Positions 3,337 to 43,844 of a stretch of 57,529 nt of DNA are shown here, piece after piece (positions within the stretch are counted from its first letter, which is position 1; each line of letters begins with the position of its first letter). The position numbers and the translations under genes were made by a program. The notes beneath the pieces were generated by a model that was not told where the DNA came from, made no database searches, and saw only the letters and a list, made by a program, of their open reading frames with translations. Source of the DNA: Mesorhizobium sp. 61-13. Its GTDB lineage: Bacteria > Pseudomonadota > Alphaproteobacteria > Rhizobiales > Rhizobiaceae. The DNA lies in NCBI GenBank assembly GCA_001897075.1, contig MKRZ01000135.1, forward strand, positions 95,827 to 153,355, in the 5' to 3' direction.

Positions 3337-3344
3337 GACCCGGC

Positions 3345-3764
3345 ATGGACGTGATCATCTACCACAACCCCAAATGCGGGACCTCGCGCAACACGCTTGC
3401 GATGATCCGCAATGCAGGAATCGAACCGCATGTTATCGAGTACCTGAAGACACCGCCGACGCGAGAGCTGCTGCGTCAGCTGGTGGAGCGGATGGGCACG
3501 TCGCTCCGCAGTATCCTCCGCGAGAAGGACACGCCTTACGGGGAGCTCGGCCTTGGCGATCCCGCCCTGACAGACGAGCAGCTGTTCGATGCGATTGAGA
3601 AGCATCCGATTCTGATGAACCGTCCGATCGTCGTCTCGCCGAAAGGCGTGAAGCTTTGCCGCCCGTCCGAGACGGTCCTCGACCTCCTACCTGCCCAGAA
3701 GGGCGCCTTCGCCAAGGAAGATGGCGAGCAGGTGACCGATGCGGCAGGCAACAGGCTCGCCTGA
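3345..3764 (+). CDS. arsC: Arsenate reductase, glutaredoxin-linked ArsC type
   Basis: 139 residues from ATG 3345. It carries the ArsC signature [14 protein letters not shown] with the catalytic cysteine near residue 11, then EYLKTPPTR and the conserved [18 protein letters not shown] block. This family reduces arsenate with glutathione and glutaredoxin and is unrelated in fold to the LMW enzyme before it, so the operon has two kinds of arsenate reductase. ATG 3333 overlapping the previous stop is also possible; 3345 is preferred because it matches the start of the copy at 18988. Confidence 0.9.
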
Positions 3765-3781
3765 CAACCACAGGAATTCCG

Positions 3782-4876
3782 ATGTCGAACGCAACACCTC
3801 CGGCACGCCGGCTGTCCTTCCTCGATCGCTACCTCACGGTCTGGATCTTCGCGGCGATGGCGCTCGGCGTCTTCCTCGGAACCGCCTTCGAGACCCTTCC
3901 GGCCTCGCTCGACGCCATGTCGGTCGGCACGACGAACATCCCGATCGCCATCGGCCTAATCCTGATGATGTATCCGCCGCTCGCCCGGGTGCGTTACGAG
4001 GAGCTGCACCGCGTCTTCGCCGACAAGCGCGTGCTGGTCCTGTCGCTGGTCCAGAACTGGATTATCGGTCCAACGCTGATGTTCGGGCTCGCGGTGATCT
4101 TCCTGCGCGACCACCCCGAATACATGACGGGCGTGATCCTGATCGGATTGGCGCGCTGCATCGCCATGGTGCTGGTCTGGAACCAGTTGGCCAAGGGCGA
4201 CAACCAGTATGTCGCTGGCCTCGTCGCGTTCAATTCGATCTTCCAGATCCTGTTCTTCTCGACCTATGCCTGGTTCTTCCTGTCCGTCCTCCCGCCGCTG
4301 TTCGGCCTGGAAGGCAGCGTTGTCGACGTCGGCTTCTGGACGATCACCAAGGCCGTCCTGATCTACCTCGGCATCCCCTTCGCAGCCGGATACCTCACGC
4401 GGCGCTTCCTGATCTCCAGCAAGGGGAGCGATTGGTACGAGGGCGTGTTCCTGCCCAGGATCAGCCCGATCACGCTCGTCGCGCTGCTCTTCACCATCGT
4501 GGCCATGTTCAGCCTCAAGGGCGGCGATGTCGTGCGGCTACCCTCCGATGCGCTTCTGATCGCCGTTCCTCTGGTGATCTACTTCGTCGTGCAGTTCGTC
4601 ATCAGCTTCCTGATGGGCAAGTTGATCGCGGCTGACTATCCTCGCACGACGGCCATCGCCTTCACGGCCGCAGGCAACAATTTCGAACTGGCGATCGCGG
4701 TTGCCATCGCCGCTTTTGGTCTTGCTTCCCCGGTCGCGTTCGCGGCGGTCATCGGACCGTTGGTCGAAGTCCCCGTGCTTGTACTGCTGGTGCACGTGGC
4801 GCTCAGGTTGGGCAGGCGCTGGTTCGCCGATACTGCGCCTGATGCAGTGCCGGCGGCCGCGACAGCCAGACCGTAG
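3782..4876 (+). CDS. acr3: Acr3-family arsenite efflux permease (operon 1)
   Basis: 364 residues with about ten membrane segments. Diagnostic Acr3 stretches are [20 protein letters not shown] and the cysteine-containing [13 protein letters not shown], where the conserved Cys is needed in characterised Acr3 proteins, and [16 protein letters not shown] near the end. It exports As(III) using the proton gradient. It resembles the Bacillus-type Acr3 more than the second permease at 17891, so the two operons carry different Acr3 subtypes. The ATG at 3782 follows AGGAATTCCG and comes 17 bases after arsC; the open frame extends upstream but without homology. Confidence 0.92.
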
Positions 4877-5032: not shown

Positions 5033-5071
5033 GGGGTCGGTTCCGGCTGGGGGCGGAATGACACCCTAAGC
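5033..5071 (+). repeat. Left terminal inverted repeat of the Tn3-family element
   Basis: 39 bases starting GGGGTCGGTTCCGG and ending ATGACACCCTAAGC. It matches the reverse complement of 16741-16779 at 35 of 39 positions; differences lie at positions 15-17 and 24. The tnpA stop codon falls inside it. Confidence 0.9.
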
Positions 5072-7963
5072 GTTTGCCTCCGTGGGCCAAAGATATTCGC
5101 CGGTCAGCAGGATATGCGCCCAGCCCAGAGGAGAGATGTGGGCTAAAAGTTCGGGTGGCACATCGAGGCCTTCGTTTCGCCGTTCGGCGACGGCGTGGCC
5201 AAGGTGGACGGTATTCCAGTAGATGATGATCGCCGTCAGCAGATTCAGCCCGGCGATCCGGTAATGCTGCCCCTCAGTGGTTCGATCACGGATTTCACCT
5301 TGACGGCCGATGCGCAGGGCACTCTTGAGGGCATGGTGGGCTTCGCCCTTGTTGAGGCCAATCTGGGCGCGGCGCTGCATATCGGTATCGAGGATCCACT
5401 CGATGATAAAGAGAGTGCGCTCGACGCGGCCGACTTCCCGAAGCGCGGCCGCAAGATCGTTCTGTCGGGGATAGGATGCGAGTTTCCGGAGCAACTGGCT
5501 CGGTCTGATCTTTCCGGCGGCCATCGTGGCAGCACAGCGGAAGAGATCAGGCCAGTTTGACACAATCAGTTCTTCGCGGATTTTGCCGCCCACCAGCTTG
5601 CGTAAATCTTTGGGTGTCCCCGCGGGATCGAAGACATAAAGCCGTTTCGACGGTAAGTCGCGGATGCGCAAGACGAGCCGGTAGCCGAGCATGGCACTGG
5701 TCCCGAACAAATGATCGGTAAACCCCGCCGTATCGGCGTATTGCTCGCCGACCTGCCGGCCGACTTCATTCATCAGCAGGCCATCGAGGATGTACGTAGC
5801 TTCACTGACGGTTGCGGGAATAGTCTGTGAGGCGAACGGCGCGAACTGGTCATTGACGTGGGTATAAGCCTTGAGCCCAGGCTCACTGCCGTACTTGGCG
5901 TTGATCATGTTCATGGCCTCGCCCTGTCGTGCCGAAGGGAAAAACTGACCATCGCTTGATGCGGTTTTTCCCATGCCCCAGAACCGGGACATCGGCAGCT
6001 TGCCCTGCGCGGCCACGACCATCGCCAGCGCCTGGTTCATGCCCTCGCTTTCGACATGCCAGCGGGCAAGGCGCGAGAGCTGCCAGTAATCATGCGTGTT
6101 CGAGGCTTCCGCCATTTTTCGAAGGCCTAGGTTCAGCCCTTCGGCGAGCAGAACGTTCAGCAAGCCGACCCGATCGCTGCATGGCGCTCCGGTTCTGAGA
6201 TGGGAAAAGGCGTCCGAGAATCCGACCGCCGCGTCAACTTCCAGCAAGATGTCAGTGATCCGCACAGGCGGCATTCGACGATAAAGATCGAGGACCAGTT
6301 CCTCTGCGCTTTCGGGAACGTCTGCGGTCAACCGGTCGATCCGCAACGTTCCATCTTCAATGCTACCATGGGGGATGGTCCCGTCGCGAGCGGCACGTGC
6401 CAGCCGCTTCAGACCATCCGCAAGGCGACCCTTGCGGTCAGCCAGCCAAGCTTGAGGATCGAGAGGAACAGCCATCCTGGCATTCGCCTGCGCCGAGGTC
6501 ATCGGAACAAGCACCTGCTTGAGATCGCCGTAGCGGCGGGAATGATCCAGCCATATGTCTCCAGACCGGAAAGCATCGCGAAGATGAAACAGCACCGCGA
6601 CCTCCCATAAACGACCATCGCCTCGGTCTTGCGCTCGGAGATGGCGATGCCATTTCGAATTCGGCCGCAGGAATGATATACCTGTTGATGTCGGCGCACG
6701 TGTTTCGCCGATGGCTTTCGCGGCTGCAATCAATGGCTCCGCCACCGACGCAGCCTTGAGCTTCAGGCATCGCAACATCCGCGGCGCATATCGGCGAAAA
6801 CGATGATACCCTTGTCCGACGTGAGCCAACGGCTCGTCTGCCAATGTACTGGTGAGTTGCGTCCCTACGGCAACCAGCTGTTCAAGCTGATGCCATTCGG
6901 CCGACCGTGCCAACACATTGTCCAACGGAACACCATCGTCGCGAGCTTCCAGCAAAGAGGCTCCCAATGCCGTGAAAGCGCGAAGCGTATCGGTGACTGC
7001 GGCCTTGGAACCGGCAATCCGCTCGTCATGTAGCCGTTTCGCCTCTCGCCAAGTTTTCCCAACGATGCGGTCGTGGGTTTCGATGATGGCATCGGCGATC
7101 GCGGCTTCCCATTCGACGACGCAAACGGCGAGGATCGCCCACCGCCGATCCGAACTGATGTCGCGCAGGCCATCCGTGAAGTAACGCTCGCCCTGCCGAC
7201 GCAGGCGCGCGATGCGGTGTGGCGGTACGCCTAGGAGGATCTGGGGATCGACTTCCAGACCGCGCAGGAACTCCAGCCGATCAAGCAAGCGGTTCGCTGA
7301 TGCGGAATTGCTGCCGACTTCGAACTGGCGAAGCCAGATGAAACGGCTGATGTTTCCGTCAACCATTTCGGTCAGAAGCCCGTCCAGTTGCTCGCGCACA
7401 CTAAAGTCGAGCCTTTCCGCTATCCGTGTCTCAATGCATCGCTCGGCGGCAACAAGGGCATCGGCGCACAGACGCTCGATCGTTGACGCCGCCGGCAGGA
7501 TGGTCACCATTTTCCTGCATTGCGCGACGAAGCGCCGCGCCAGATCTTCGTTCGACCTGGCATCTTCAGCCTGATCGAAAAGCCAATCCCGCAGATCACG
7601 GGCCCCGCGCCCCGTGAATGTCTTGTAGCCGTAGATCTCGCGCAACGCCTCCATATGTTGCTGGCGGGTCTGACGCCGGGCGGCATAGGTGAGAAGCGCA
7701 TCGGCCGGAACGCCGAGCTGAGCTCCGATGAAGGAAAGGACTTCATGCGGAATCATTTCGCCCGGAGCCAGCGCGCGCCCTGGATAGCGTAGTGCACAAA
7801 GCTGCAGGGCGAAACCCAGCCTGTTTTCTGGTCTGCGGCGTTCCTGAATGTTTGCCAGATCGTCGTCGCCCAATGTGTAATGCTTCAGCAGTGATAACTC
7901 GTCCGTCGGCAGGTCGAGCAACGCCGAGCGCTGTCGCTCGGCGAGAATATGTCGTCTTGGCAT
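5066..7963 (-). CDS. tnpA: Tn3-family transposase TnpA
   Basis: 965 residues from the ATG at 7963 (MPRRHILAERQRSALLDLP), a typical start and full length for Tn3-family TnpA; the frame is open 19 codons further upstream but without homology. An N-terminal DNA-binding half is followed by the catalytic half, where SSDGQFF supplies the first Asp, YILDGLL the second, and NEVGRQVGEQYADTAGFTD lies before the catalytic Glu region. It catalyses replicative transposition at the 39-base ends and is transcribed away from tnpR. No frameshift is visible, so the element may still be able to move. Confidence 0.93.
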   Translation of the reverse strand: MPRRHILAERQRSALLDLPTDELSLLKHYTLGDDDLANIQERRRPENRLGFALQLCALRYPGRALAPGEMIPHEVLSFIGAQLGVPADALLTYAARRQTRQQHMEALREIYGYKTFTGRGARDLRDWLFDQAEDARSNEDLARRFVAQCRKMVTILPAASTIERLCADALVAAERCIETRIAERLDFSVREQLDGLLTEMVDGNISRFIWLRQFEVGSNSASANRLLDRLEFLRGLEVDPQILLGVPPHRIARLRRQGERYFTDGLRDISSDRRWAILAVCVVEWEAAIADAIIETHDRIVGKTWREAKRLHDERIAGSKAAVTDTLRAFTALGASLLEARDDGVPLDNVLARSAEWHQLEQLVAVGTQLTSTLADEPLAHVGQGYHRFRRYAPRMLRCLKLKAASVAEPLIAAAKAIGETRAPTSTGISFLRPNSKWHRHLRAQDRGDGRLWEVAVLFHLRDAFRSGDIWLDHSRRYGDLKQVLVPMTSAQANARMAVPLDPQAWLADRKGRLADGLKRLARAARDGTIPHGSIEDGTLRIDRLTADVPESAEELVLDLYRRMPPVRITDILLEVDAAVGFSDAFSHLRTGAPCSDRVGLLNVLLAEGLNLGLRKMAEASNTHDYWQLSRLARWHVESEGMNQALAMVVAAQGKLPMSRFWGMGKTASSDGQFFPSARQGEAMNMINAKYGSEPGLKAYTHVNDQFAPFASQTIPATVSEATYILDGLLMNEVGRQVGEQYADTAGFTDHLFGTSAMLGYRLVLRIRDLPSKRLYVFDPAGTPKDLRKLVGGKIREELIVSNWPDLFRCAATMAAGKIRPSQLLRKLASYPRQNDLAAALREVGRVERTLFIIEWILDTDMQRRAQIGLNKGEAHHALKSALRIGRQGEIRDRTTEGQHYRIAGLNLLTAIIIYWNTVHLGHAVAERRNEGLDVPPELLAHISPLGWAHILLTGEYLWPTEANA

Positions 7964-7970
7964 GCGCGCG

Positions 7971-8004
7971 TTGTCCCTGTTGAAGTACAGTCTGTTTTGG
8001 ACAA
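7971..8004. promoter_or_regulatory. Candidate res/promoter site between tnpA and tnpR
   Basis: TTGTCC (7971-7976) and GGACAA (7999-8004) form a dyad with 22 bases between, inside the roughly 95-base divergent gap. In this arrangement the gap normally holds the resolution site bound by TnpR and both promoters. Other subsites were not resolved by eye. Confidence 0.5.
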
Positions 8005-8058
8005 CAATCGCCCCATGCAAATCAAGGCTTTGCGAGCCACAAAACCACGAGGGTTCAA

Positions 8059-8685
8059 TTGGGACAGCGCGTGGCCATCTATTGCCGGGTTTCGACGGCT
8101 GATCAGTCCTGCGAACGACAGGAGCGAGATCTGACCGCCTTCGCCGGACGTGCCGGATATAAAATTGCCGGCATATATAAAGAGACGGGCTCGGGCGTGA
8201 AGCTGGACCGGGCCGAGCGCAAGAAGATCATGGCGCTCGCTCAGGCTAGACATATCGACGCCATCCTGGTCACAGAACTCTCCCGCTGGGGACGCTCGAC
8301 GATCGATCTCCTCAACACGTTGCGCGAGCTGGAAAGCTGGAAGGTCTCAGTCATCGCCATGAACGGCATGACCTTCGATCTGTCATCTCCTCATGGCCGT
8401 ATGCTGGCGACTTTCCTCTCCGGTATCGCTGAATTCGAACGCGATCTTATCAGCGAACGGGTCAAATCGGGCTTGGCCGTTGCCAAAGCGCGCGGCAAGA
8501 AACTCGGTCGACAGCGGGGGCAGCGCCCGAAGTCGGACCGTCTGGCTCCGCGAGTTCTGGCGCTCGTTGCTGAAGGCCGCAGCTATCGGCTCATTGGTCG
8601 CGAACTTGGGCTCAGCAAGAACACCGTCTCCGATATCGTGCAACGTAACCGCAACGCTATCGTCGCTCGCGAGCCAAATCGTTGA
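8059..8685 (+). CDS. tnpR: Serine resolvase TnpR
   Basis: 208 residues, a small serine recombinase. The catalytic serine is in YCRVSTADQ (Ser12); the E-helix and dimer region follow (FLSGIAEFERDLISERVKSG), then a C-terminal helix-turn-helix (YRLIGRELGLSKNTVSDIVQ). It resolves cointegrates at res and usually represses its own and tnpA promoters. The TTG start at 8059 follows CACGAGGG; GTG 8071 is an alternative. Divergent from tnpA as in the Tn3 subgroup rather than the Tn21 order. Confidence 0.9.
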   Translation: MGQRVAIYCRVSTADQSCERQERDLTAFAGRAGYKIAGIYKETGSGVKLDRAERKKIMALAQARHIDAILVTELSRWGRSTIDLLNTLRELESWKVSVIAMNGMTFDLSSPHGRMLATFLSGIAEFERDLISERVKSGLAVAKARGKKLGRQRGQRPKSDRLAPRVLALVAEGRSYRLIGRELGLSKNTVSDIVQRNRNAIVAREPNR

Positions 8686-8817
8686 GCCCGATAAAGGTCC
8701 CGATGACATCGAGCGAGAACCGGAACGCCGGTTGATCGCCGGGCAACGCCGGCTCCATGACCAGAGATACGCCTACATCGTCTCCCGTTCGCCAAAAGCG
8801 AACTGATTGTTTCGGTG

Positions 8818-9216
8818 TTACCGGCTCCTTAGCTGGCGTACTCTGAGCCAGACATTGAGAAAACTGGCGGCGATCAAACCAGAGATGCCGACGTAGGCCA
8901 GGACAAGGCTTGGCATGAGACCGAGAAACACGACCGCTATCGCCAGCGTACTGAGCCCCCCGATGATGAGAGCCCACGGTTGATGATGGCTGCGTGTTCC
9001 AAGATATAGCCCGAGTAGGGTGACGGCCAGAAACGCTGCTAACAATGGGAACAGGATCGCATCTCTTTTGATGAAGCCAAGCCCGACGGCCGATACAATC
9101 GAAAGGAGTACCGGGGAACCGAGGCAGCAGAGCGCCGCGAAGACCGATCCGGCGGCCCCGAATTTGTCCAGGTGCCGTTTCCAAAAGGTACTTTGCTCGA
9201 TGGTGTTCGCGGCCAT
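8818..9216 (-). CDS. merC: MerC-like mercury uptake membrane protein
   Basis: 132 residues with four hydrophobic segments. The first carries a vicinal cysteine pair (FAALCCLGSPVLL) as expected for Hg(II) transport proteins, and VGLGFIKRD resembles the MerC family. It would carry Hg(II) across the inner membrane to the reductase. It follows merT and merP on the same strand with a gap of about 150 bases that contains a GC hairpin, so it may be a separate or attenuated unit. MerC is preferred over MerT because of the four-helix layout and length. Confidence 0.72.
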   Translation of the reverse strand: MAANTIEQSTFWKRHLDKFGAAGSVFAALCCLGSPVLLSIVSAVGLGFIKRDAILFPLLAAFLAVTLLGLYLGTRSHHQPWALIIGGLSTLAIAVVFLGLMPSLVLAYVGISGLIAASFLNVWLRVRQLRSR

Positions 9217-9367
9217 AGCTGCAGTCTCCTACACACCTGCAACTTCGCACCCGCCGGGTGGATATTTTCGACGGCGCCGTTCACCCTTTGAGGCAGCAGC
9301 GTGCCGATGTGGAGCAGCGAAGAGAGGTGATACCGCTCTCCGCCCGCCGCCGCCAATCAGCCGGCGG

Positions 9368-9661
9368 CTATTGCGCCACATGCGACGGATAGCCGGCGTT
9401 GGTCGTCGCAGCAATGAGGGTCGGTACGCCGGTGACTGCGTCATCGAAAGAGACCGTGGCGACAGCACCCGACATTGCGTCGGCTTCCTTTACCTGGACC
9501 GCTGTGACACCCGAGACACGAGAGAGGGCCGTTTTGACGATGGGGGCGCAGAGCGCGCAGGTGGCGTTGTCAACGTTCAGTATAACAGTCTTCTCGCCGG
9601 CCACGGCGGCGAGCGGGGAAAGCAGAGCGAGGAGAACGGCAACTGCGACAGGGCGGATCAT
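9368..9661 (-). CDS. merP: MerP periplasmic mercury-binding protein (first mer module)
   Basis: 97 residues. A signal peptide (residues 1 to about 22) precedes a heavy-metal-associated domain with Cys35 and Cys38 in NATCALCAPIV. The classical MerP motif is GMTCAAC, so the middle residues differ. It binds Hg(II) in the periplasm and passes it to MerT. The start at 9661 follows AAAGGAG; it lies 19 bases after merT. Confidence 0.85.
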   Translation of the reverse strand: MIRPVAVAVLLALLSPLAAVAGEKTVILNVDNATCALCAPIVKTALSRVSGVTAVQVKEADAMSGAVATVSFDDAVTGVPTLIAATTNAGYPSHVAQ

Positions 9662-9680
9662 GGGATCATTCTCCTTTGGC

Positions 9681-10103
9681 TTAGAGGAACAGGGGCGCAA
9701 GTCTCGGGAACCCTAGTCCGACGATGACGAGGACGGTGGCAACCCAGAGGCCGGCTTTGGCGATCCGTCCCGACTTGGGCTGGGCGCAATAGGAGCCCTC
9801 AGCGCAGGCGACCTTTGGCTCGCGATAGACGAGATAGAACCCGTAGCCGAGGATACCGAACGTCATGGCGGCAAAAATCGGTTGATACGGTTCGAGGGCG
9901 GTGAGGTTGCTGATCCAGGCTCCGCCGATGCCCACGGTGAACAGGGCAAACGGGATGACGCAGCAACTCGAGACGGCGATCGCCCCGAGAATGCCGCCGG
10001 CGGCGAGCAGTTGCTGGCGTCCGCCCCGCTGGTGTTCCGATGTCACGTGGATGGCGGCGGTCGCCGACGTTCGGGATCCTTTGAGACCTGATGATGCCTC
10101 CAT
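9681..10103 (-). CDS. merT: MerT mercury transporter (first mer module)
   Basis: 140 residues with three membrane segments. The vicinal pair Cys47-Cys48 (AVSSCCVIPFALF) in the first helix and the loop pair Cys100/Cys106 (VACAEGSYCAQ) are the two Hg(II) relay sites of MerT. An N-terminal extension of about 30 residues precedes the first helix. It is preceded by a MerR-type promoter at 10146-10176 and followed by merP. Confidence 0.88.
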   Translation of the reverse strand: MEASSGLKGSRTSATAAIHVTSEHQRGGRQQLLAAGGILGAIAVSSCCVIPFALFTVGIGGAWISNLTALEPYQPIFAAMTFGILGYGFYLVYREPKVACAEGSYCAQPKSGRIAKAGLWVATVLVIVGLGFPRLAPLFL

Positions 10104-10145
10104 AATTGCTCACTTTCTGCATCGTTGAACAGCGATTTGCGAAGT

Positions 10146-10176
10146 AGCCTACGCCTTGTAGTCACTACAGACTCAA
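10146..10176 (-). promoter_or_regulatory. MerR-type promoter of merT-P(-C)
   Basis: On the minus strand TTGAGT and TAGGCT are separated by 19 bases that contain the dyad CTGTAGTGACTACAAG. The overlong 19-base spacer with a central dyad is the hallmark of promoters untwisted by MerR. No regulator gene is adjacent; the merR at 16322 could act here because the second promoter shares the TTGAGTCTGTA half. Confidence 0.82.
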
Positions 10177-10350
10177 GGGGGATTTCAACGATTTGCGATC
10201 ACGCTTCTGTGAGGGCGTTGGAAAGTGGAACCCGTTGAGCAGTCGCTGTCGTCTGAAGACCGTAGCTGGGGTTTTCAAGCATCATGAACCGTGGCGCTAC
10301 CAATCTCTGTTTCCGCAGTGCCTACGTGGCCAAGCGATCAAGATTTTGTC

Positions 10351-10381
10351 TTGACCCTGTACCGAGTACAGGGTGTAACGA
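10351..10381 (+). promoter_or_regulatory. Orphan MerR-family promoter driving the CC-protein and hisI
   Basis: TTGACC, then a 19-base spacer, then TAACGA. The spacer is part of a strong dyad CCCTGTACCGAGTACAGGG. The arms resemble PbrR/CadR/ZntR-type operators more than the two mer operators in this element. No MerR-family gene lies next to it. Expected transcription start is about 100 bases before the next gene. Confidence 0.72.
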
Positions 10382-10490
10382 ATCTCTTTGGCAGCGATCG
10401 CGTCATCGGGATACCCGACGCGGTCGTGCTTGTGATTAATGGACCGCGCCGCAGCGATGCTATGGATCTGCGATCAGAACGGAGAGCGCC

Positions 10491-10784
10491 TTGGACGACA
10501 AACCGACCGCCGGCATCGTGACCGCGATCATCATCGCGCCTTTAGTCGCGCTTTGCTGCCTTGGACCGGTAGTCATCGGCTCGGCGGTGGGCGGCGTTTT
10601 GGGCTGGTTCAGCGGGCAAGGTCTCGTGATAGGGGGTGTGCTGACACTCCTGGCTGGAGCCGCCGGCTATGCCCTCATGCGCTGGCGCCGGGCTTCATCT
10701 CGTCGGGAAGATGCCTCCCCGACATGCACATGTGACGAGCCCAAAGCACGGCCCGGCAGCCGCCAACCACCAACCATCCTTTGA
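10491..10784 (+). CDS. Small MerF-like membrane protein with CC motif
   Basis: 97 residues starting at TTG 10491 after CGGAGAG. Two hydrophobic helices; the first has a vicinal cysteine pair ([14 protein letters not shown]) like MerF, where such a pair moves Hg(II) through the membrane. A polar C-terminal tail adds CTC (SPTCTCDE), unlike normal MerF. It sits between a MerR-family promoter and hisI. A metal transport role is inferred; the metal is not known. Confidence 0.6.
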
Positions 10785-10839
10785 GCCGGCACACTCCAAT
10801 CGCGAAATACCCCGTACACTCGGAGATACGCCCTTGCCC

Positions 10840-11256
10840 ATGACCACGCCGGCCGCGGACCTCGCGGAAACGATCGAAGAAAACTCCATTCTGACGCCGC
10901 AATTCAACGCGGATGGGCTCATTCCTGCAGTCGCCACGGATGCGGCGAACGGTGTGGTGCTAATGCTGGCGTGGATGAATGCGGAGGCGCTGGAAAAGAC
11001 GATCGAGACCGGTCAGGCCTGGTACTGGAGCCGGTCCCGCAAGTGTCTTTGGCATAAGGGCGCGACGAGTGGGCAAGTCCAGCAGGTCGAGGAACTGCGC
11101 ATCGATTGTGATCAGGACGCGGTGTGGCTCAAGGTGCGCGCTGGCGGAGACGGCGGATGTTGCCATACCGGCCGGGCGAGTTGCTTCTATCGCCGGATCG
11201 TTACGGCGCCGGGTCGCCCGACGCTCCGCCGGGTGCCGGATGCCCCGCCGAGATAG
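10840..11256 (+). CDS. hisI: Phosphoribosyl-AMP cyclohydrolase paralogue
   Basis: 138 residues. Family hallmarks are [23 protein letters not shown], and the metal-binding stretch [11 protein letters not shown] with Cys90, then Cys107-Cys108-His109 and Cys115 ([13 protein letters not shown]). HisI is a Zn/Mg enzyme opening the ring of phosphoribosyl-AMP in histidine synthesis. Here it is far from other his genes, inside a mercury transposon and behind a MerR-family promoter. I infer a spare, metal-tolerant or metal-induced copy that protects histidine synthesis when the zinc site of the housekeeping enzyme is poisoned. TTG 10834 is an alternative start with better spacing to GGAG. Confidence 0.85.
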
Positions 11257-11852
11257 GTCCTCAGGGTAATATCGATGTTTTCGAGCGCGACCAGGCGCTC
11301 CAGTATCACGGTCAGAAGACCGACCAGCCGCCGAAAACCCTCCAAAGCCACCTCCGGAAAGCCGTTCCGCCGGCGTGTCGCGATGGAGAGAGTATTGATC
11401 GTGCCATCACCGAAGCGCAGCGGAACGATAAGATAGTCGGTAAAGCCGTCAGCCCTAAGTTCGCCGTAGAGGTCGCACCGAAACGCTCGGACGTCCTGCA
11501 GGCGAGGAACGCGGAGCTCCGTGCGCGTCGTGTGCACATGATGATCCGGGGAAGCGAGATAGCCCGGTCGGTTCTTCAGACCATGCGGCCAATCGATGAC
11601 ACGAACTCTGTCGTCGTCGGCAAGCCAGAGATAGGTCCGGGCACGGAAGGCCGGATGCAGCGGCTGCGCGCTCACAAAGATGCGATCGACGCGAAGCGTT
11701 GCCGCGGACAGCAACCGTCCGATATCGCGGATCACCGCACGCGCGTCGGTCGACGCAGCGGCGCTGTCGGAGAGACCGAGTGCGAGGCGGCCGAGATGCA
11801 TGCCCGGATCGCCGTAGGGTGCCTCGGAATCACAGACCCGGCGCTTGGTCAT
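11187..11852 (-). pseudogene. 5' part of an adenylate/guanylate-cyclase-type regulator, cyclase domain lost
   Basis: 221 codons with a GAF-like sensor region (HPAFRARTYLW, VDWPHGLKNRPGY, SPDHHVHTTR, LRVPRLQDVRAFRCDLYG, TINTLSIAT, GLLTVILER). From memory this block precedes a class III cyclase domain in rhizobial proteins. Here it stops about 30 residues after the GAF region, where the frame runs into the end of convergent hisI (overlap 11187-11256). The break is near 11229-11250. No cyclase catalytic domain is found nearby. Confidence 0.6.
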
Positions 11853-12071
11853 GGGCGTAATCCTGCTGAACGGGCAGGACTAAGACGCTCGACCGTCGGG
11901 AATCGCTGACTGGGGGACATTCCTTTGCTCATGCTGTCCTCGATGGTAAGGCCGTTGGCCGTTCGAAACGATCGTGTGTCTGCCGGTGGGGCGCCTCCCA
12001 AACTCTGCTCCCCGTCGCGTCGAGCGTTTTCAGAGACGCCCGCAATCGAAATGCCAGCCTTGCCGCATCAG

Positions 12072-13427
12072 CTACACCATCGAACTGATGTCCGACGCAT
12101 AGCTGGGATAGGCGAAGATGATGCCCTTGATCCTGTTCGCGGTCAGCCCTGCGCCCATAGCCATGGCAAAGAGATTGATTTGTTCCTCCGCTCCGGGGCC
12201 GATCAGATGTGCACCAAGAATATGGCCGGTCCCGTTCTCGACCAGAACCTTGTAGGCACTGTAGCGCGCCCCGACCCGCAGCGACGAGTACCAGCCGGCG
12301 GTCTTTTCGAAATGCGTGTCAAAGGCCAGCCCCTTGTCGCGTGCTGCGGCTTCGGACAGGCCGACCGAGGAAAGCTGCGGCAGCGTGAAGACAACGCTTG
12401 GGATCGGCGGATAACTGACCGCGCGCTCATCCTTTCCTGCGAGCAGGTTCTTGCCTGCAATCCGGCCTTCGTTGGCCGAAACCGGGGTCAGATTAGGCCC
12501 ACTGTCGGCACAGTCGCCGGCTGCAAAAATGGCGGAATTTGTGGTCCGCATGTAGGGGCTGACCTTGATGCCTTTGCGGCCGTATTCCACGCCCGCGGCC
12601 TCCAGGTTGAGATGCTCGATGTTGGGCACGCGCCCGGTGGCATGAACCACCAGATCACAATTGATCGTCTGCTTTCCTTCCGGCGTCTTATAGGTAACGG
12701 TGAAATCCGACCCGTCTTTCTCGATCTTCAGAACCTTGGCCTCGGTCCGCAGGTCAATCCCCAGATCGGCGGTCGCCTCGGAAAGGATACCGACCAGGTC
12801 GGGGTCGAAATTGCCCAGCGGTCGCTCCATCATCTCCAGAACCGTGACTTCCCGCGCCCCTGCGCGTTTGGAGATATGGGCAAATTCCATCGCAATGAAT
12901 CCGCCGCCGACGAACACGACCCGGTCCGGCCGTTCGGGCAGCTCGAGAAAGTCGGTGCTAGTCGCCAGCAACTCCTCGCCGGGGATATTCAGCGTCATTG
13001 GCCGAGCGCCGGTGGCGATATGAAAGTTCCGGGACGACAAGATCTCGCCATTCACCTCGATCTTGTCTCGCCCGGTGAAGCGTGCCTCGCCATGCAACAC
13101 GGTGATACCGGCTTTCTCCAGCCCGCCCTCGATGCGACCAGGCATCGCGTCGGTGAACGTGCGCTTGAAGGCGATCATGTCCGCCCAGTCGACGGATGTC
13201 TGTGCTTCCAGCCCCTTGCCGCTCAAGTTGCGGGCCCAGTCAATGCCCTCAGTCACGGCGATCAGCATCTTTTTGGGATCGCAGCCTCGCAATGCACAGG
13301 TGCCGCCGAAAGGAAGGGCGTCGATGCTGGCGACCTTCCAGCCAGCGTCAGCGGCCATCCGGGCGACACCATTTCCACCCGTCCCACCTCCGATCACGAT
13401 CAGATCGAAGCTTTTGTTATCGCTCAT
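12072..13427 (-). CDS. MerA-like flavoprotein disulfide oxidoreductase of unusual type
   Basis: 451 residues of the glutathione reductase/dihydrolipoamide dehydrogenase superfamily: FAD site VIGGGTGGNG, redox pair Cys44/Cys49 in GGTCALRGCDPKK, second nucleotide site VFVGGGFIAMEF, and FAD segment IFAAGDCADSG. The CALRGC spacer differs from the usual CVNVGC. The C terminus ends YPSYASDISSMV and lacks both the His-Glu pair of disulfide reductases and the CC tail of MerA. The start at 13427 follows GGAGAGGAG. It is downstream of a CC membrane protein and merA, so a role in Hg or thiol redox handling is inferred; the substrate is unknown. Confidence 0.75.
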   Translation of the reverse strand: MSDNKSFDLIVIGGGTGGNGVARMAADAGWKVASIDALPFGGTCALRGCDPKKMLIAVTEGIDWARNLSGKGLEAQTSVDWADMIAFKRTFTDAMPGRIEGGLEKAGITVLHGEARFTGRDKIEVNGEILSSRNFHIATGARPMTLNIPGEELLATSTDFLELPERPDRVVFVGGGFIAMEFAHISKRAGAREVTVLEMMERPLGNFDPDLVGILSEATADLGIDLRTEAKVLKIEKDGSDFTVTYKTPEGKQTINCDLVVHATGRVPNIEHLNLEAAGVEYGRKGIKVSPYMRTTNSAIFAAGDCADSGPNLTPVSANEGRIAGKNLLAGKDERAVSYPPIPSVVFTLPQLSSVGLSEAAARDKGLAFDTHFEKTAGWYSSLRVGARYSAYKVLVENGTGHILGAHLIGPGAEEQINLFAMAMGAGLTANRIKGIIFAYPSYASDISSMV

Positions 13428-13557
13428 GCAATTCTCCTCTCCTAAAAGACTACTTTTCCCCCTGACAAAAAACCTAACCCCCACAGCAAGGTTTGCAACG
13501 CCCTGCCTGCAATAATACCCTTCTCAACATGACATCCGGCGACGCTTTTGAGCAGAA

Positions 13558-13818
13558 CTACTTGCGCCGACCGTATATCGGTTGACCGACGGGGCCTTTG
13601 CCGTCGGTCTTGCCATTTGCCCGCGCGCGGTGCCGCCACAAGTAGATTCCGACAATGGCCAAGACGGCCGCTGCCAGCCAGAAGTAGCCGCCGCCGACCA
13701 GCCAACTGGCAAGGCCGGCAAAGCTGATCGCGCCTGTTGCTGCCAGTACAATCGCGCCGCAGCAGACGATCTTAGCCGCGAGCAATCCCGCAAGGCCGTA
13801 TCCGTTCGAAGGTTCCAT
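13558..13818 (-). CDS. Small membrane protein with CC motif in mer operon
   Basis: 86 residues, two hydrophobic helices. The first has LLAAKIVCCGAIVLAATGA, with a vicinal cysteine pair placed as in MerF/MerT; the C-terminal tail is basic and polar. It starts 10 bases after merA on the same strand. It probably moves Hg(II) or assists transport; sequence similarity to named Mer proteins is weak, so no symbol is given. Confidence 0.6.
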   Translation of the reverse strand: MEPSNGYGLAGLLAAKIVCCGAIVLAATGAISFAGLASWLVGGGYFWLAAAVLAIVGIYLWRHRARANGKTDGKGPVGQPIYGRRK

Positions 13819-13827
13819 CGAAGCCTC

Positions 13828-15258
13828 CTATCCGGCGCAGCATGACAGCTTCGCCACGTCCTTGCCGAAGCCCTGCGCCGCCAGTTTCAACCCTTCGACC
13901 GTGGTGAGATAAGGGAAGATTGTCTCGCCGAGCGCCTTCGCCGTCATGCCGTGCTTGATGGCCAACACCACCGTCTGGATGCTGTCGGCGCCCTCGGGCG
14001 CGAGGATCTGTCCACCAAGCAATCGGTCGCTTTTGGCGTCGGCAACCAGTTTGATGAGCCCGCGCGTGTCGCGCGCGGCCAGCGCCCTCGGCACCTGGTC
14101 AAGAGATACGATCGAAGTCTTGGTCTCGAAGCCGGCGTCGCGAGCCGCCTGTTCGGTCAGGCCGACGCCCGCGACCTGCGGATCGGTGAACGTCACCCAC
14201 GGCATGGCCGCATTGTCATAGACAAGGCTGTCACCGTTCAGTGCGTTTTGGGCAGCGAGCTTGGCGCCATAGGCTGCCATATAGACGAACTGGTCGCGAC
14301 CGGTGACATCACCTGCCGCATAGACGCCAGGCTTTGAGGTGCGCATCCGCTCATCAACCAAGACGCCGCCATTACCGCATAGCTTAACTCCCGCCTCGGC
14401 AAGGCCAAGACCGCCGGTGTTCGGGGACCGCCCAGTGGTCAAAAGCACCTGCTCGGCCGCGATCACTTCGTCCGCTCCGTCGATGGCGACCGTCAGTTCG
14501 ACACCGCGGTCCGTGCGCGCGATCCGGCGATAGGAGAGGCCGGTTAGGACGGTAATGCCCTCGTCGCGAAGATAACCGGTCAATGCTGCGGAGATTTCCG
14601 GCTCGGCTTCCGGCAACAGGCGGCGGCGGGTTACAAGTGTCACTTCCGCCCCGGCACGGGCGAACATCTGCGCCAGTTCACAGCCGATATAGCCACCGCC
14701 GATCACCAGCAGCGAACGCGGCAGCTCGGAAAGCTCGAGCGCGGTCGTGCTGGTGAGGTAAGGCACATCCCCAATGCCGGGAATGTCCGGCAGGGCCGGC
14801 GCTGATCCGGTAGCAATGATGATTTTGCCAGCCATGATCGGATCGCCGTTCACAATCAGAGCGCCCTGACCATTCAGGCGCGCTTTCCCTTCCAGATAGG
14901 CGACGCCGTTGTATTGTGGCAGAAGGTCGACATATTTCTTCTGCCTGAGCGTGGTCACCAGGTCGTCCTTGGCGGCGACCAAACGGCCCCAGTCAGCGAC
15001 GTTGGCTTCCCCGGCAAGACCGGGAAAGCGATGCGCGGCGCGTGCACCATGCAGCGCCTCGGCAGCGCGGATCATCGTCTTCGACGGTACGCAGCCGACA
15101 TTGACACAGGTGCCGCCGATCGTGCCGTGGCCGATCAGGGCGACATTCGCCCCCTGCTCAGAGGCCGTGATTGCGGCCGAGAACCCGGCCGAACCGGCAC
15201 CGATCACCGCAAGATCGTAGCGGCCATTGCCTTTTTGGGGCGCACAGCAGTCAGACAT
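13828..15258 (-). CDS. merA: Mercuric reductase MerA
   Basis: 476 residues. FAD-binding VIGAGSAGFSAA, redox-active Cys51/Cys56 in GGTCVNVGCVPSK, second nucleotide motif VIGGGYIGCELAQ, and the C-terminal Cys473-Cys474 pair (LSCCAG) that hands Hg(II) to the active site. It reduces Hg(II) to volatile Hg(0) with NADPH. The N-terminal HMA (NmerA) domain of many MerA proteins is absent; only a short leader with its own CC (MSDCCAPQ) precedes the core. It lies in the order merT-P-F-A on the minus strand with 9 bases to merF. Confidence 0.95.
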   Translation of the reverse strand: MSDCCAPQKGNGRYDLAVIGAGSAGFSAAITASEQGANVALIGHGTIGGTCVNVGCVPSKTMIRAAEALHGARAAHRFPGLAGEANVADWGRLVAAKDDLVTTLRQKKYVDLLPQYNGVAYLEGKARLNGQGALIVNGDPIMAGKIIIATGSAPALPDIPGIGDVPYLTSTTALELSELPRSLLVIGGGYIGCELAQMFARAGAEVTLVTRRRLLPEAEPEISAALTGYLRDEGITVLTGLSYRRIARTDRGVELTVAIDGADEVIAAEQVLLTTGRSPNTGGLGLAEAGVKLCGNGGVLVDERMRTSKPGVYAAGDVTGRDQFVYMAAYGAKLAAQNALNGDSLVYDNAAMPWVTFTDPQVAGVGLTEQAARDAGFETKTSIVSLDQVPRALAARDTRGLIKLVADAKSDRLLGGQILAPEGADSIQTVVLAIKHGMTAKALGETIFPYLTTVEGLKLAAQGFGKDVAKLSCCAG

Positions 15259-15267
15259 GAAAATCTC

Positions 15268-15486
15268 CTAATGTTTCCTGGTATCGATGTGTGAACGATG
15301 TCGCCACAGCAGGTAACCGGCTGCGGCAATGATGAGGATGAGAATTGGCACCAGACCGTAGACCGCTGTTGTCAGCGCTCCCACGCCGATCAAACCTGCC
15401 GCCACCAGCAGGATCGGCACCAGACAGCACAGCGCCGCGATCAAGACGCCAACCACTCCGACGCCAAGCATGGACCGGTCAGGCAC
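15268..15486 (-). CDS. merF: MerF-like mercury transporter
   Basis: 72 residues from GTG 15486, with GGGAG inside the end of merP as ribosome site; ATG 15471 is an alternative. Two membrane helices, the first with LIAALCCLVPILLVAAGLIG matching MerF layout. A short basic tail (WRHRSHIDTRKH) follows. It sits between merP and merA and would give a second Hg(II) entry route beside MerT. Confidence 0.75.
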   Translation of the reverse strand: MPDRSMLGVGVVGVLIAALCCLVPILLVAAGLIGVGALTTAVYGLVPILILIIAAAGYLLWRHRSHIDTRKH

Positions 15487-15490
15487 GGAC

Positions 15491-15829
15491 TCAACTCCCG
15501 ATCGCCTTGGCAGGATAGCCAACATTGGTGGAAGCAGCGGCAATGGCCGCGACCGTCGCGGTCGACGGGTCATAGGCAACCGTCGCCGTCTTGGCCTCGA
15601 AATCCACCTTGACCGACTTCACGCCCGCAACGCCTTCCATGGCCTTGCGCACGGTGACCGGACAAAGGGCACAATACATGTTCTCGATTGCGAAGGTCTG
15701 CGTCAGCTCCTTGACGGTAACCGTTTCCGACGCGGATTGTGCGGACGCGGGAAGGGCAAGTGGCAGCATAATAGTACCGCTCAAGCCAAGCGCAGCCGCG
15801 GCGACCAGATGTTTCGACAGGTATTTCAC
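15491..15829 (-). CDS. merP: MerP periplasmic mercury-binding protein (second mer module)
   Basis: 112 residues from GTG 15829 after GAGGAG. A signal peptide ends near ALPASAQS (about residue 31). The HMA domain has Cys53 and Cys56 in NMYCALCPVTVRKAM, again CALC rather than CAAC as in the first copy. GYPAKAIGS closes the domain. It begins 17 bases after merT. Confidence 0.87.
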   Translation of the reverse strand: MKYLSKHLVAAAALGLSGTIMLPLALPASAQSASETVTVKELTQTFAIENMYCALCPVTVRKAMEGVAGVKSVKVDFEAKTATVAYDPSTATVAAIAAASTNVGYPAKAIGS

Positions 15830-15846
15830 GTGGTTATCTCCTCGTT

Positions 15847-16245
15847 TCAATAGAACAGCGGCGCCCACCAGCCGATGGTGCTGGCGAGCACGATGAGGAT
15901 CGTTGCGATCCAAAGCGCGGTCTTGGTGATGATGGCGGAGCGCGGACGGGCGCAGTAGGAACCCGGCTCGCACGCGGCTTTGGGCTTGAAATAGACCTGC
16001 CAGAAGCCAAACCCGAGCGGCACGAGTGTCGCCGCCGCGATATAGGGCTTATAGGGTTCGAGCATCGTCAGGTTGCCGATCCATGCGCCCGATACACCGA
16101 GTGTCACCAGGAGCAGCGGGACGATGCAACAGGCCGATGCCAGAAAAGCGCCGATAACGCTTATCGCCGCGAGCCCGCCCTCGCGCCGATCCGGTTCGGC
16201 GGCCGCCTTCGAAGAATTCAATGTCTTGCTACCAATTTCGTTCAT
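15847..16245 (-). CDS. merT: MerT mercury transporter (second mer module)
   Basis: 132 residues from ATG 16245. Three membrane helices, the vicinal Cys39-Cys40 pair (FLASACCIVPLLL) and the loop pair in AACEPGSYCARP. The overall form is close to MerT of the first module but the sequences have diverged, which argues for two separately acquired modules rather than a recent duplication. It is divergent from merR with the operator between. Confidence 0.88.
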   Translation of the reverse strand: MNEIGSKTLNSSKAAAEPDRREGGLAAISVIGAFLASACCIVPLLLVTLGVSGAWIGNLTMLEPYKPYIAAATLVPLGFGFWQVYFKPKAACEPGSYCARPRSAIITKTALWIATILIVLASTIGWWAPLFY

Positions 16246-16276
16246 CGCAAACCATCCTCGATTTCTGACTGAAAAC

Positions 16277-16307
16277 AGGATAGGCTCTGTAGCCAGTACA
16301 GACTCAA
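16277..16307 (-). promoter_or_regulatory. MerR-type promoter of merT-P-F-A
   Basis: On the minus strand TTGAGT and TATCCT are 19 bases apart with the dyad CTGTACTGGCTACAG between them. It lies between divergent merT and merR and overlaps the merR promoter, the standard arrangement for MerR control. Confidence 0.88.
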
Positions 16308-16321
16308 GAGGTATTTTCACC

Positions 16322-16735
16322 ATGAATTCTCTTCTTTCCGCCAAGGGACTGCAGCGCCACCAATTGGCCCGTGCGACCGGCTGCCATCTGGAGACCATCC
16401 GCTATTACGAGAAGATCGGCCTGCTACCCGACCCGCCGCGCAGCGCCAGCGGTTATCGCATCTATGACGAAACCGACGTCCGCCGCCTGCGCTTCATCCT
16501 CAGGGCGCGCGAACTCGGCTTTGGCATCGACGAGGTCCGCGGCCTGCTTCATCTTGTCGATTGCAGAAGCCAGACCTGCGCGGAGGTGCAGCGCCGGACC
16601 GAACCGCATCTAGCCGAGGTTCGCGCCAAGATTGCCGACCTCCAGCGCATTGAAGCGGTGCTCGTGACAATGATCTCGCAATGCTCTGGCGAAGACGTGC
16701 CGGAATGCCCGATCCTTAACGCGCTCGCCGCTTGA
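16322..16735 (+). CDS. merR: MerR mercury-responsive regulator
   Basis: 137 residues. N-terminal winged helix (HLETIRYYEKIGLLPDPPRS), a long dimer helix and a C-terminal metal loop. Candidate Hg ligands are Cys86 (SQTCAEV) from one subunit and Cys121/Cys129 (QCSGEDVPEC) from the other; the loop is one residue shorter than in Tn501 MerR. It activates merTPFA and represses itself. It ends 6 bases before the right inverted repeat. It is the only regulator in the transposon although three MerR-type promoters are present. Confidence 0.92.
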   Translation: MNSLLSAKGLQRHQLARATGCHLETIRYYEKIGLLPDPPRSASGYRIYDETDVRRLRFILRARELGFGIDEVRGLLHLVDCRSQTCAEVQRRTEPHLAEVRAKIADLQRIEAVLVTMISQCSGEDVPECPILNALAA

Positions 16736-16740
16736 CGGGC

Positions 16741-16779
16741 GCTTAGGGTGTCATTTCGCCCCATACCGGAACCGACCCC
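16741..16779 (-). repeat. Right terminal inverted repeat of the Tn3-family element
   Basis: 39 bases; the reverse complement begins GGGGTCGGTTCCGG and matches the left end at 35 of 39. The base triplets just outside (CTT on the left, AAG on the right) are also complementary, while no direct repeat is present. Confidence 0.9.
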
Positions 16780-17361: not shown

Positions 17362-17871
17362 ATGAGCAACCAACCATTCAACGCGCTATTCCTGTGCACG
17401 GGAAACTCGGCACGCTCTATCCTCGCCGAAGCAATCCTCAACCGGGTCGGCGAGGGGCGTTTCAAGGCCTTCTCCGCCGGGTCGCAGCCCAAAGGCACGG
17501 TCCATCCCTATGCGATCCAGCTCCTGCAGGGGCTGAACTACGACACCGCCTTTGCGCGTTCAAAAAGCTGGGAGGAATTTGCCGCCCCCGGTGCGCCGGA
17601 GATGCACTTCGTCTTCACCGTCTGCGACAGTGCAGCCAATGAATCCTGCCCGGTTTGGCCGGGCCAGCCGATGACGGCGCATTGGGGCATCCCGGACCCA
17701 GCAGCCGCTGGCGGGACCGACCCCGAAAAGCACCTGGCCTTCGCCGAAGCCTACCGGATGCTGAACAGCCGCATCGCGCTCTTCACAAGCCTGCCCATGG
17801 CGACGCTCAACCGACTGTCGCTTCAAAGGCGTCTGGACGAGATCGGCGGCAATCTGCCTTCGGCCAGTTGA
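17362..17871 (+). CDS. arsC: Arsenate reductase, low-molecular-weight phosphatase type (operon 2)
   Basis: 169 residues with P-loop CTGNSARS and the blocks FVFTVCDSAANESCPVWPGQ and HWGIPDPAA. Close homologue of the protein at 2818. It starts 13 bases after arsR. Expected to supply As(III) to the permease encoded next. Confidence 0.9.
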   Translation: MSNQPFNALFLCTGNSARSILAEAILNRVGEGRFKAFSAGSQPKGTVHPYAIQLLQGLNYDTAFARSKSWEEFAAPGAPEMHFVFTVCDSAANESCPVWPGQPMTAHWGIPDPAAAGGTDPEKHLAFAEAYRMLNSRIALFTSLPMATLNRLSLQRRLDEIGGNLPSAS

Positions 17872-17890
17872 ACGAATACGAAAGACAATC

Positions 17891-18991
17891 ATGACGGACC
17901 ACGCTATCGCCACGGCCGAGCCCACCGGCATTGGTTTCTTCGAAAAGTATCTAACGGTGTGGGTGGCGCTCTGCATCGTGGCCGGCATCGCGCTCGGCCA
18001 CCTGTTTCCGGGTGGTTTCCAGAGGATCGCGGCGGCGGAAATCGCCAAGGTCAACATTCCCGTAGCCGTGCTGATCTGGCTGATGATCGTGCCGATGCTG
18101 TTGCGCGTCGATTTCGCGTCTTTGGCCAAGGTCGGCACCTACTGGCGCGGCATCGGCGTCACGCTGTTCATCAACTGGGCGGTCAAGCCGTTCTCGATGG
18201 CGCTGCTCGGCTGGCTGTTCATCGGCTGGCTGTTCCGGCCATATCTTCCTGAGGTACAGATCGATTCCTACATCGCCGGCCTCATTATCCTGGCGGCGGC
18301 ACCGTGTACGGCGATGGTCTTCGTCTGGTCGAATCTGATGCGGGGCGAGCCGAATTTCACGCTGTCGCAGGTGGCGCTCAACGACGCGATCATGATCGTC
18401 GCCTTCGCGCCGATCGTCGGCCTGCTGCTCGGCCTGTCGGCGATTACGGTGCCTTGGGACACGCTGTTGCTCTCGGTCGTGCTCTACATCGTGCTGCCCG
18501 TGGTCGTGGCCCAGATCGTGCGCCGACGGCTTTTGGTGGCCGGGGGACAGGCGGCGCTCGGTCGACTTCTGGGCAGGCTGCAGCCTGTCTCGCTGATTTC
18601 CCTGCTGGCAACGCTGGTTCTGCTGTTCGGCTTCCAGGGCGAGCAGATCATTGCCCAGCCAACCGTCATCGCGCTGCTGGCAGTGCCGATCCTTATCCAG
18701 GTCTATTTCAATTCGGGCCTCGCCTATCTGCTCAACCGCATGTCCGGCGAGCGGCATTGCGTGGCGGGGCCATCGGCCCTGATCGGTGCATCCAACTTCT
18801 TCGAACTCGCCGTCGCGGCAGCCATTGCGCTGTTCGGCCTCAATTCGGGTGCTGCCCTGGCAACAGTTGTCGGCGTGCTGGTCGAGGTGCCCGTGATGCT
18901 GTCGGTTGTCTGGATCGTGAACCGCAGCAAGGGCTGGTACGAAGCCGGCATCCCGGCCCATGCAAAATCAATCAGGAACCCCGCCGAATGA
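17891..18991 (+). CDS. acr3: Acr3-family arsenite efflux permease (operon 2, second subtype)
   Basis: 366 residues with about ten membrane segments. Motifs: FEKYLTVWVALCIVAGIALG, VNIPVAVLIWLMIVPMLLRVDF, and the cysteine motif AAPCTAMVFVWSNL. It is clearly of a different Acr3 branch from the operon 1 permease (which has [13 protein letters not shown]). Its stop overlaps the next start by ATGA, indicating translational coupling to arsC. Confidence 0.92.
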   Translation: MTDHAIATAEPTGIGFFEKYLTVWVALCIVAGIALGHLFPGGFQRIAAAEIAKVNIPVAVLIWLMIVPMLLRVDFASLAKVGTYWRGIGVTLFINWAVKPFSMALLGWLFIGWLFRPYLPEVQIDSYIAGLIILAAAPCTAMVFVWSNLMRGEPNFTLSQVALNDAIMIVAFAPIVGLLLGLSAITVPWDTLLLSVVLYIVLPVVVAQIVRRRLLVAGGQAALGRLLGRLQPVSLISLLATLVLLFGFQGEQIIAQPTVIALLAVPILIQVYFNSGLAYLLNRMSGERHCVAGPSALIGASNFFELAVAAAIALFGLNSGAALATVVGVLVEVPVMLSVVWIVNRSKGWYEAGIPAHAKSIRNPAE

Positions 18992-19410
18992 CGATCACCA
19001 TCTACCACAATCCCGCCTGCGGCACGTCGCGCAACACGCTGGCCATGATCCGCCAATCGGGCGAGGAACCGCAGATCATCGAGTACCTGAAAACGCCGCC
19101 TGCGCGCGAGACGCTGATTGAACTGATCGCGGCGATGGGGATCACCCCGCGTGCCTTGCTGCGCGAGAAGGGAACGCCCTATGCCGAACTTGGCCTCGGC
19201 GATCCCAAATGGACCGACGACGAGATCGTTGATTTCATGTTGGCGCATCCGCTCCTGATCAACCGCCCGATTGTCGTCACACCACTCGGCGTTGTCCTGG
19301 CGCGCCCGTCGGAAGCCGTTCTCGATGTCCTCCCCAATCCGCACATCGGCTCGTTCACCAAGGAAGACGGTGAGGTTGTCATCGACGGGGAGGGCAAGCG
19401 CCTTGCCTGA
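18988..19410 (+). CDS. arsC: Arsenate reductase, glutaredoxin-linked ArsC type (operon 2)
   Basis: 140 residues with [17 protein letters not shown] (catalytic Cys near residue 11), EYLKTPPAR and [18 protein letters not shown]. It overlaps acr3 by 4 bases and arsH by 8. In operon 1 the same gene comes before acr3, so gene order has been rearranged between the two clusters. Confidence 0.92.
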
Positions 19411-35018: not shown

Positions 35019-37625
<2,607 letters not shown>

Positions 37626-37765
37626 CAGATCACTGCAAGGGTAGGCGCCAGATGAACCGAATCATGCATCAGATAGCGGACGCTATCCGACTTACTCCGC
37701 TAAAAGCATGAACCTTAGCAATCGGTTCTAACGTAAGTGAGCAAGCCCGGAATGGGATTAGGTGG

Positions 37766-41938: not shown

Positions 41939-43844
<1,906 letters not shown>

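Follow-up and report, generated by a model that had tools for sequence, protein, structure and literature searches.

A MerR-type promoter before a hisI unit in a mercury-resistance transposon and the possible replacement of a mercury-poisoned enzyme

The presence of a gene for a histidine-pathway enzyme inside a mercury-resistance transposon raises the question of what controls the gene, whence it was recruited and what use it might be to a cell exposed to mercury. The gene, hisI, lies in a stretch of 57,529 nucleotides from Mesorhizobium sp. 61-13 (the window), where it forms a unit with the gene for a small membrane protein, here called CC, inside a transposon of 11,747 bases (5033-16779, Table 1). 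Membership of this transposon in the Tn3 family was indicated by tnpA, a resolvase gene and terminal inverted repeats near 38 bases; the 5-base flanks of the window copy do not form a direct repeat. The transposon was found at 99.97% identity or higher in an Agrobacterium plasmid, Aquamicrobium defluvii and Shinella lacus, and a search of a plasmid collection showed the stretch 8800-12000 at 99% identity or higher in 10 plasmid records, which indicates that a single transposon has spread recently. Two similar arsenic-type gene sets (2818-4876 and 17362-19410), judged by eye from their open reading frames to consist of a phosphatase-like arsenate reductase, an ArsC-like protein and a transporter, flank the transposon. 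A heat-shock island with ClpB-, DnaJ- and DnaK-like frames and a GrpE-like frame, likewise assigned by eye, lies near the metal genes at 35019-43856.

Table 1. Features of the mercury transposon, in window coordinates
Feature	Positions	Strand	Basis
left terminal inverted repeat	5033..5070	+	34/38 bases match
right terminal inverted repeat	16742..16779	-	paired with left end, 34/38
Tn3-family transposase gene	5066..7963	-	annotation on identical copy L006
resolvase gene	8059..8685	+	annotation on identical copy L006
MerC-domain protein	8818..9216	-	PF03203
merP	9368..9661	-	HMA and MerP matches
merT	9681..10103	-	PF02411
mer operator of divergent merT-merP-merC unit, shared dyad design	10150..10176	-	pattern search and dyad comparison
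MerR-type promoter/operator of cc-hisI unit	10351..10381	+	TTGACC, 19-base spacer, TAACGA; dyad 10355-10373
CC, MerF-like small membrane protein	10491..10784	+	open reading frame, profile match; start TTG
hisI, phosphoribosyl-AMP cyclohydrolase	10840..11256	+	PF01502, NF000768; three zinc-site Cys present
unnamed protein, convergent with hisI, overlaps hisI 3' end	11187..11852	-	no Pfam or NCBIfam match
MerA/glutathione-reductase-like FAD disulphide oxidoreductase	12072..13427	-	family-model matches; accompanies cc-hisI in relatives
merA	13828..15258	-	annotated merA on identical copy L006
second merT	15847..16245	-	PF02411
operator between second merT and merR, shared dyad design	16281..16307	-	pattern search and dyad comparison
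merR, presumed to regulate all three operators	16322..16735	+	PF13411 and PF09278

The promoter of the cc-hisI unit has the design of a MerR-controlled mer promoter, as an earlier note on this DNA had claimed. Thus, the hexamers TTGACC (10351-10356) and TAACGA (10376-10381) are separated by 19 bases, and the central dyad, which has arms of 8 bases about a centre of 3, is shared with the operator between merR and merT. MerR activates from over-long spacers of 19 bases, and no ordinary sigma-70 promoter (spacer of 16-18 bases) was found in 10100-11300. A 27-base operator pattern, with up to three mismatches allowed, matched the window four times as opposed to 0.02 times expected from 100 shuffles; two of these matches are the 10351 palindrome read on both strands and the other two precede the two merT genes. 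Cores of the CTGTA-N5-TACAG type were noted at 10357 and 16287 and, with one arm base off, at 10156, the centre being common to all. Given three operators of like design and a single MerR-type protein identified in the transposon, the 10351 promoter is most simply a third operator of that MerR, acting in trans, and mercury rather than some other metal is its expected inducer since MerR and two like-designed operators are carried on the same transposon. The earlier remark that no regulator gene adjoins the unit therefore stood, whereas the description of the promoter as an orphan did not, with merR about 6 kb off in the same 11.7 kb element; an orphan promoter answering to a metal left unnamed is ruled out by this MerR and the two other operators of common design. 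MerR-type regulation of cc-hisI is well supported by these motifs, from which we also infer induction by Hg(II) through this MerR.

The hisI product, read from the ATG at 10840, scored 162.7 bits with the equivalog model NF000768 (cut-off 126) and 116.9 bits with PF01502 (cut-off 27), by which its identity as HisI is well supported. Its residues Cys90, Cys108 and Cys115, which we take to be the zinc ligands, align with conserved cysteines of the solved HisI 1ZPS, in agreement with the previous description of an intact enzyme, and both the zinc-site cysteines and the DCDQD segment were retained in all 15 alpha-type HisI proteins of mer clusters. P29, A30 and W45, each likewise present in 15 of 15, differ from most of 81 compared non-mer rows and presumably occur also in ordinary gammaproteobacterial HisI (the P. 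aeruginosa sequence). The window HisI contains 5 cysteines in 138 residues; a mercury-hardened enzyme with fewer thiols was rejected, HisI from mer clusters being no poorer in cysteine. As noted before, no other his gene was present among the open reading frames of the transposon.

The partner protein CC, of 97 residues, carries a CC pair in its first hydrophobic stretch and CTC near its C-terminal end, and its gene begins with ATG or GTG in relatives instead of the TTG of the window. Alignment with the MerF profile gave an hhalign probability of 95.8% over 72 columns that included the CC segment, so that its first characterization as a MerF-like protein with these two motifs was confirmed. 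The Pfam and NCBIfam matches of CC (MerT and stannin) were under curated cut-offs, that to MerT at 21.6 bits against 150, and no MerF model matched; CC is thus termed MerF-like and not MerF. It belongs to a small family of its own with 17 members, and nothing useful was found among solved structures. Pairwise dN/dS, which is a rough measure here with several dS values above 1.5, ranged from 0.10 to 0.48 for eleven mer-linked hisI genes (0.30 or less in 50 of 55 pairs) and from 0.12 to 0.87 for seven cc genes, the three values above 0.4 all belonging to pairs whose dS did not exceed 0.06. These values indicate purifying selection on both genes.

Recurrence of the unit was evident when genome contigs were scanned with HisI, 206 of them encoding relatives. 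Among the best 80 of these, mer homologues within 8 kb were noted for 14 (L007-L020) and not for 66, and every match of at least 73% identity was one of the 14. Copies of the window transposon account for three (L007-L009), while the others (L010-L020) are from Rhizobiales, Bradyrhizobium, Sphingobium, Sphingomonas, Novosphingobium, Erythrobacter, Microvirga and Methylobacterium; altogether, mer-linked cc-hisI or hisI was found in Rhizobiales, Sphingomonadales, Methylobacteriaceae and the Pseudomonas plasmid pMR68. The pairing of hisI with a merF-like gene, for which a search of mer elements had been proposed, does recur, cc being located directly 5' of hisI in L010-L019. Alpha-type loci carry hisI at five different positions relative to mer genes. 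Two different hisI genes occur in one mer locus of the Methylobacterium aquaticum plasmid pMaqPC1, before merT and after merB, and the order on pMR68 of Pseudomonas K-62 is merR, lyase-like gene, hisI, merT, merP, merF and merA. The reduced Sphingomonadales loci L014, L015 and L017 contain merR, the FAD protein, cc and hisI, with no match to merA or merB in the flanks examined. The MerA/glutathione-reductase-like FAD protein (12072-13427 in the window) accompanies the hisI cluster in all 11 of L010-L020 and may belong to the same accessory module as cc-hisI.

The operator 5' of cc was retained in all eight readable loci (the window and L010-L016), the flanks of which diverge; L010 differs by one base, three centre bases vary and L017 is a run of N. 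The exact 27-base pattern was present in 21 of 136 loci compared, all copies or relatives of this cassette, and absent from the 115 others, including non-mer hisI loci; no match was found in viral contigs. An operator precedes the hisI unit on the Methylobacterium plasmid, in Methylobacterium sp. 2A and on pMR68, with a second operator before merT in the Methylobacterium and pMR68 clusters, and in Microvirga a single operator before merT leads a mer operon that cc-hisI closes. HisI as a random passenger lacking the promoter in related elements, the case that the earlier note had set against its own reading, was looked for and not seen. A mer-type hisI pseudogene with in-frame stops was noted at about 7971-8320 of L004, a Microvirga sp. 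VF16 plasmid with no mer homologue in the flanks examined; this is a single case of decay after parting from mer.

The phylogeny of mer HisI suggests recruitment from two lineages. Placement of all mer HisI in one clade, with the Pseudomonas copy among them, was rejected (AU p 0.0069), while alpha-type mer HisI grouped together, a single clade of these (AU p 0.195, 42% of bootstrap trees) being neither shown nor rejected. The different lineage sits after merD on Pseudomonas plasmids p12969-2 (L117) and pPSA00476_5, the surroundings having been read in 2 of 8 near-identical plasmid records, and no near match to this merD-hisI stretch was found in E. coli genomes. Twelve phage records contained hisI, all at less than 60% identity. 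These trees cover the set less 37 non-mer rows, mostly Methylobacterium and Bosea, and both trees and rates omit near copies of the window element as well as a Brucella oryzae pair. The tree of HisI from zinc cassettes excludes a Phaeobacter protein labelled as cyclohydrolase that is not HisI. An annotated phosphoribosyl-AMP cyclohydrolase at 258-731 of L133 (WP_260084994.1) is not HisI by sequence, which is probably a label error.

Plasmid hisI genes away from mer, where their surroundings were opened, lay mostly in zinc cassettes marked by a COG0523 GTPase (zigA or another), a Fur-type repressor, thrS or folE (L005, L131, L132, L133, L134, L136 and its sister L089); L003, L004 and L135 were not clearly assignable. 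HisI of L005, L131, L132, L133 and L134 has DDDQD as opposed to DCDQD elsewhere, possibly a metal-site change under zinc starvation. Neither the transposon nor those mer-linked relatives that were read have zigA/COG0523, Zur or zinc uptake genes beside hisI, as a Zur cassette would. These plasmid cassettes, together with published cases (PMC2770081 and PMC6103462, as far as their available text goes), bear out the claim that extra hisI copies occur in zinc-stress regulons.

Most mer elements do without hisI. In a census that took in 385 genomes from the class and 398 from the phylum, merT was present in 33 and 65, respectively, or 96 together, and hisI was searched for in 72 of these, including that of the window, the 24 with weak merT matches being omitted. 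In the 71 other genomes hisI never lay within 40 kb of merT, about 43 kb being the shortest distance, so that hisI as a general mer trait was rejected and the gene is confined to a minority of mer elements. Hosts of the unit generally have a hisI elsewhere. Of the 14 genomes of L007-L020, 13 had a second hisI on a different contig and the other had a single hisI. The transposon hisI was the only one found in the metagenome-assembled genome of the window (90.64% complete), but a single native hisI is present in 29 of 30 congeners, and contig C11 of this assembly starts within the gene located next after hisI in a congener; the chromosomal gene is therefore probably in an assembly gap, and replacement of a lost chromosomal hisI by that of the transposon is unlikely.

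The likeliest role of the unit is the one proposed in the earlier note, metal-induced replacement of a poisoned histidine enzyme, to which the retained operator, the low dN/dS, the second host hisI, the rise of E. coli his genes after HgCl2 (PMC5769350) and the parallel of an extra HisI in zinc-starvation regulons point; the metal, which that note had left unspecified, would be mercury, as indicated by MerR and its operators. We give a little better than an even chance to the reading that cc-hisI is a mercury-inducible accessory operon that replaces the Hg-poisoned zinc enzyme HisI. The promoter design, the common operators, the intact and conserved enzyme, the conserved cassette and the second host hisI were directly observed; from these we infer the Hg sensitivity of HisI and the benefit of its replacement. 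MerR on the 10351 operator would open the over-long spacer in response to Hg(II), and CC and HisI would be produced together with the two mer operons, CC in the membrane probably handling Hg(II) and HisI serving as a functional phosphoribosyl-AMP cyclohydrolase whose zinc site is unaltered and which would be made only under mercury. A block at HisI would lead to histidine starvation, release the attenuated his operon and draw ATP and PRPP into a dead end. Were Hg(II) to displace zinc from the host HisI, the transposon HisI would restore histidine synthesis and also stop the drain of ATP and PRPP into the blocked pathway. The recurrence of cc-hisI in mer elements suggests that mercury poisons HisI in bacteria.

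Counted against replacement were the rarity of the trait, the missing hardening signature, the three reduced loci without merA or merB and two published results. Thus, in the available text of PMC3737084, Hg(II) resistance conferred on E. coli by the pMR68 mer clone, which contains hisI, was nearly equal to that conferred by the pMR26 mer clone, for which the genes listed there do not include hisI; the growth medium of this comparison was probably rich. Under nickel plus copper, deletion of hisG or hisD in E. coli was without effect on growth and hisI alone of its operon was not induced, according to the accessible part of PMC12724342.

Capture of hisI once by an alphaproteobacterial mer element, followed by spread without benefit for resistance, is unlikely but still the most probable of the alternatives. 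In its favour are the rarity of the trait, the identical copies on 10 plasmids left by one recently spread transposon, and a single alpha clade of mer HisI that was not rejected. Retention of the operator across divergent elements, the variety of positions relative to mer genes, the low dN/dS and the separate gamma recruitment of HisI all argue against it, as does L004, where the sole alpha mer-type hisI whose flanks, as far as examined, contained no mer homologue is a pseudogene (one case). A copy-number or buffering use of HisI, as an abundant zinc-thiolate protein that would take up Hg(II) or give off zinc with catalysis irrelevant, is quite improbable: three clustered cysteines plus Cys107 and Cys69 and the predicted co-induction with other Hg-binding proteins would suit it, but DCDQD and the zinc cysteines occur together in every alpha-type copy (15/15), selection extends along the whole protein, and an enzyme of this size would be a poor sponge next to MerP.

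Two further readings retain the enzyme but alter its purpose. Hydrolysis of a different nucleotide, for instance in making a thiol or cofactor of use during metal stress, might be read from P29, A30 and W45, which set the alpha mer copies apart from most non-mer rows, yet the equivalog model is satisfied and the same residues presumably belong to ordinary gammaproteobacterial HisI; we regard it as very improbable. Fainter still is the prospect that extra flux supplies histidine as a soft ligand of Hg(II), since HisG rather than HisI is the controlled step of the pathway and no hisG accompanies hisI. The strong binding of Hg(II) to the imino nitrogen of histidine, described in the available text of PMC5769350, speaks for such a supply.

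Replacement of the poisoned enzyme might extend to a broader reading, tentative and held at less than even confidence, in which mercury has HisI as one of its main targets in the cell. On this reading a spare HisI was placed under mercury control at least twice in mer elements, from different HisI lineages, much as zinc-starvation regulons have one under Zur, and histidine synthesis would be a metal-vulnerable point guarded on mobile resistance elements by target replacement. If true, this would explain why his genes of E. coli rise strongly 30-60 min after HgCl2, for a reason that the authors call unclear in the available text of PMC5769350, and would join that response to two other facts, hisI beside mer genes and HisI paralogues in zinc-starvation regulons. 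Operons of the mer type are taught as transport and detoxification systems, to which an operator-led zinc biosynthetic enzyme would add the replacement of damage, and a conserved hisI copy would point to a specific enzyme disabled by mercury.

The claim that such a strategy is not usually ascribed to mer elements held in part: hisI beside mer genes had already been printed as an open reading frame, while no explanation for a hisI or phosphoribosyl-AMP cyclohydrolase gene in this position was found in literature outside subscription papers. In their available text, PMC3737084 names orf5 and describes its analysis as still in progress, and PMC7765201 shows praC next to merR in a drawing; an explanation is given there by neither of these papers (2013 and 2020). 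The pairing is thus known as annotation. As far as our searches go, what is new is that the operator is conserved, that cc accompanies hisI, that recruitment was repeated and that replacement is proposed.

Compared with MerF and MerT transporters, CC is likewise a short two-segment protein with a CC pair in its first membrane segment but forms its own family below the family cut-offs. The nearest published cluster is mer cluster 1 of pMR68 (merR-orf4-orf5-merT1-merP1-merF-merA-merB1; PMC3737084), where orf5 is an alpha-type HisI between merR and merT with operators around; it differs in the virginiamycin-B-lyase-like orf4 in place of CC and in having hisI within the main operon, whereas cc-hisI of the window is a divergent unit. 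The praC of Tn6604/Tn5041 mer2, drawn in the available text of PMC7765201, is also a phosphoribosyl-AMP cyclohydrolase gene beside a mer module and probably represents the merD-hisI arrangement of p12969-2, a type that differs from the window in its gammaproteobacterial HisI lineage, the lack of CC and the location at the end of an operon. Zur-regulated HisI paralogues (PMC2770081; hisI2 of P. protegens, PMC6103462) are similarly metal-stress copies beside a housekeeping copy and, in the text available, keep the zinc residues and are proposed to raise copy number, but they answer to zinc starvation and Zur as opposed to MerR for the mer copies. In the alpha zinc cassettes, Asp replaced the first zinc cysteine in 5 of 5 HisI proteins, whereas mer copies keep Cys, a difference in sequence that fits different needs: the former would have to manage with scarce zinc, and the latter to provide new enzyme that uses the same metal.
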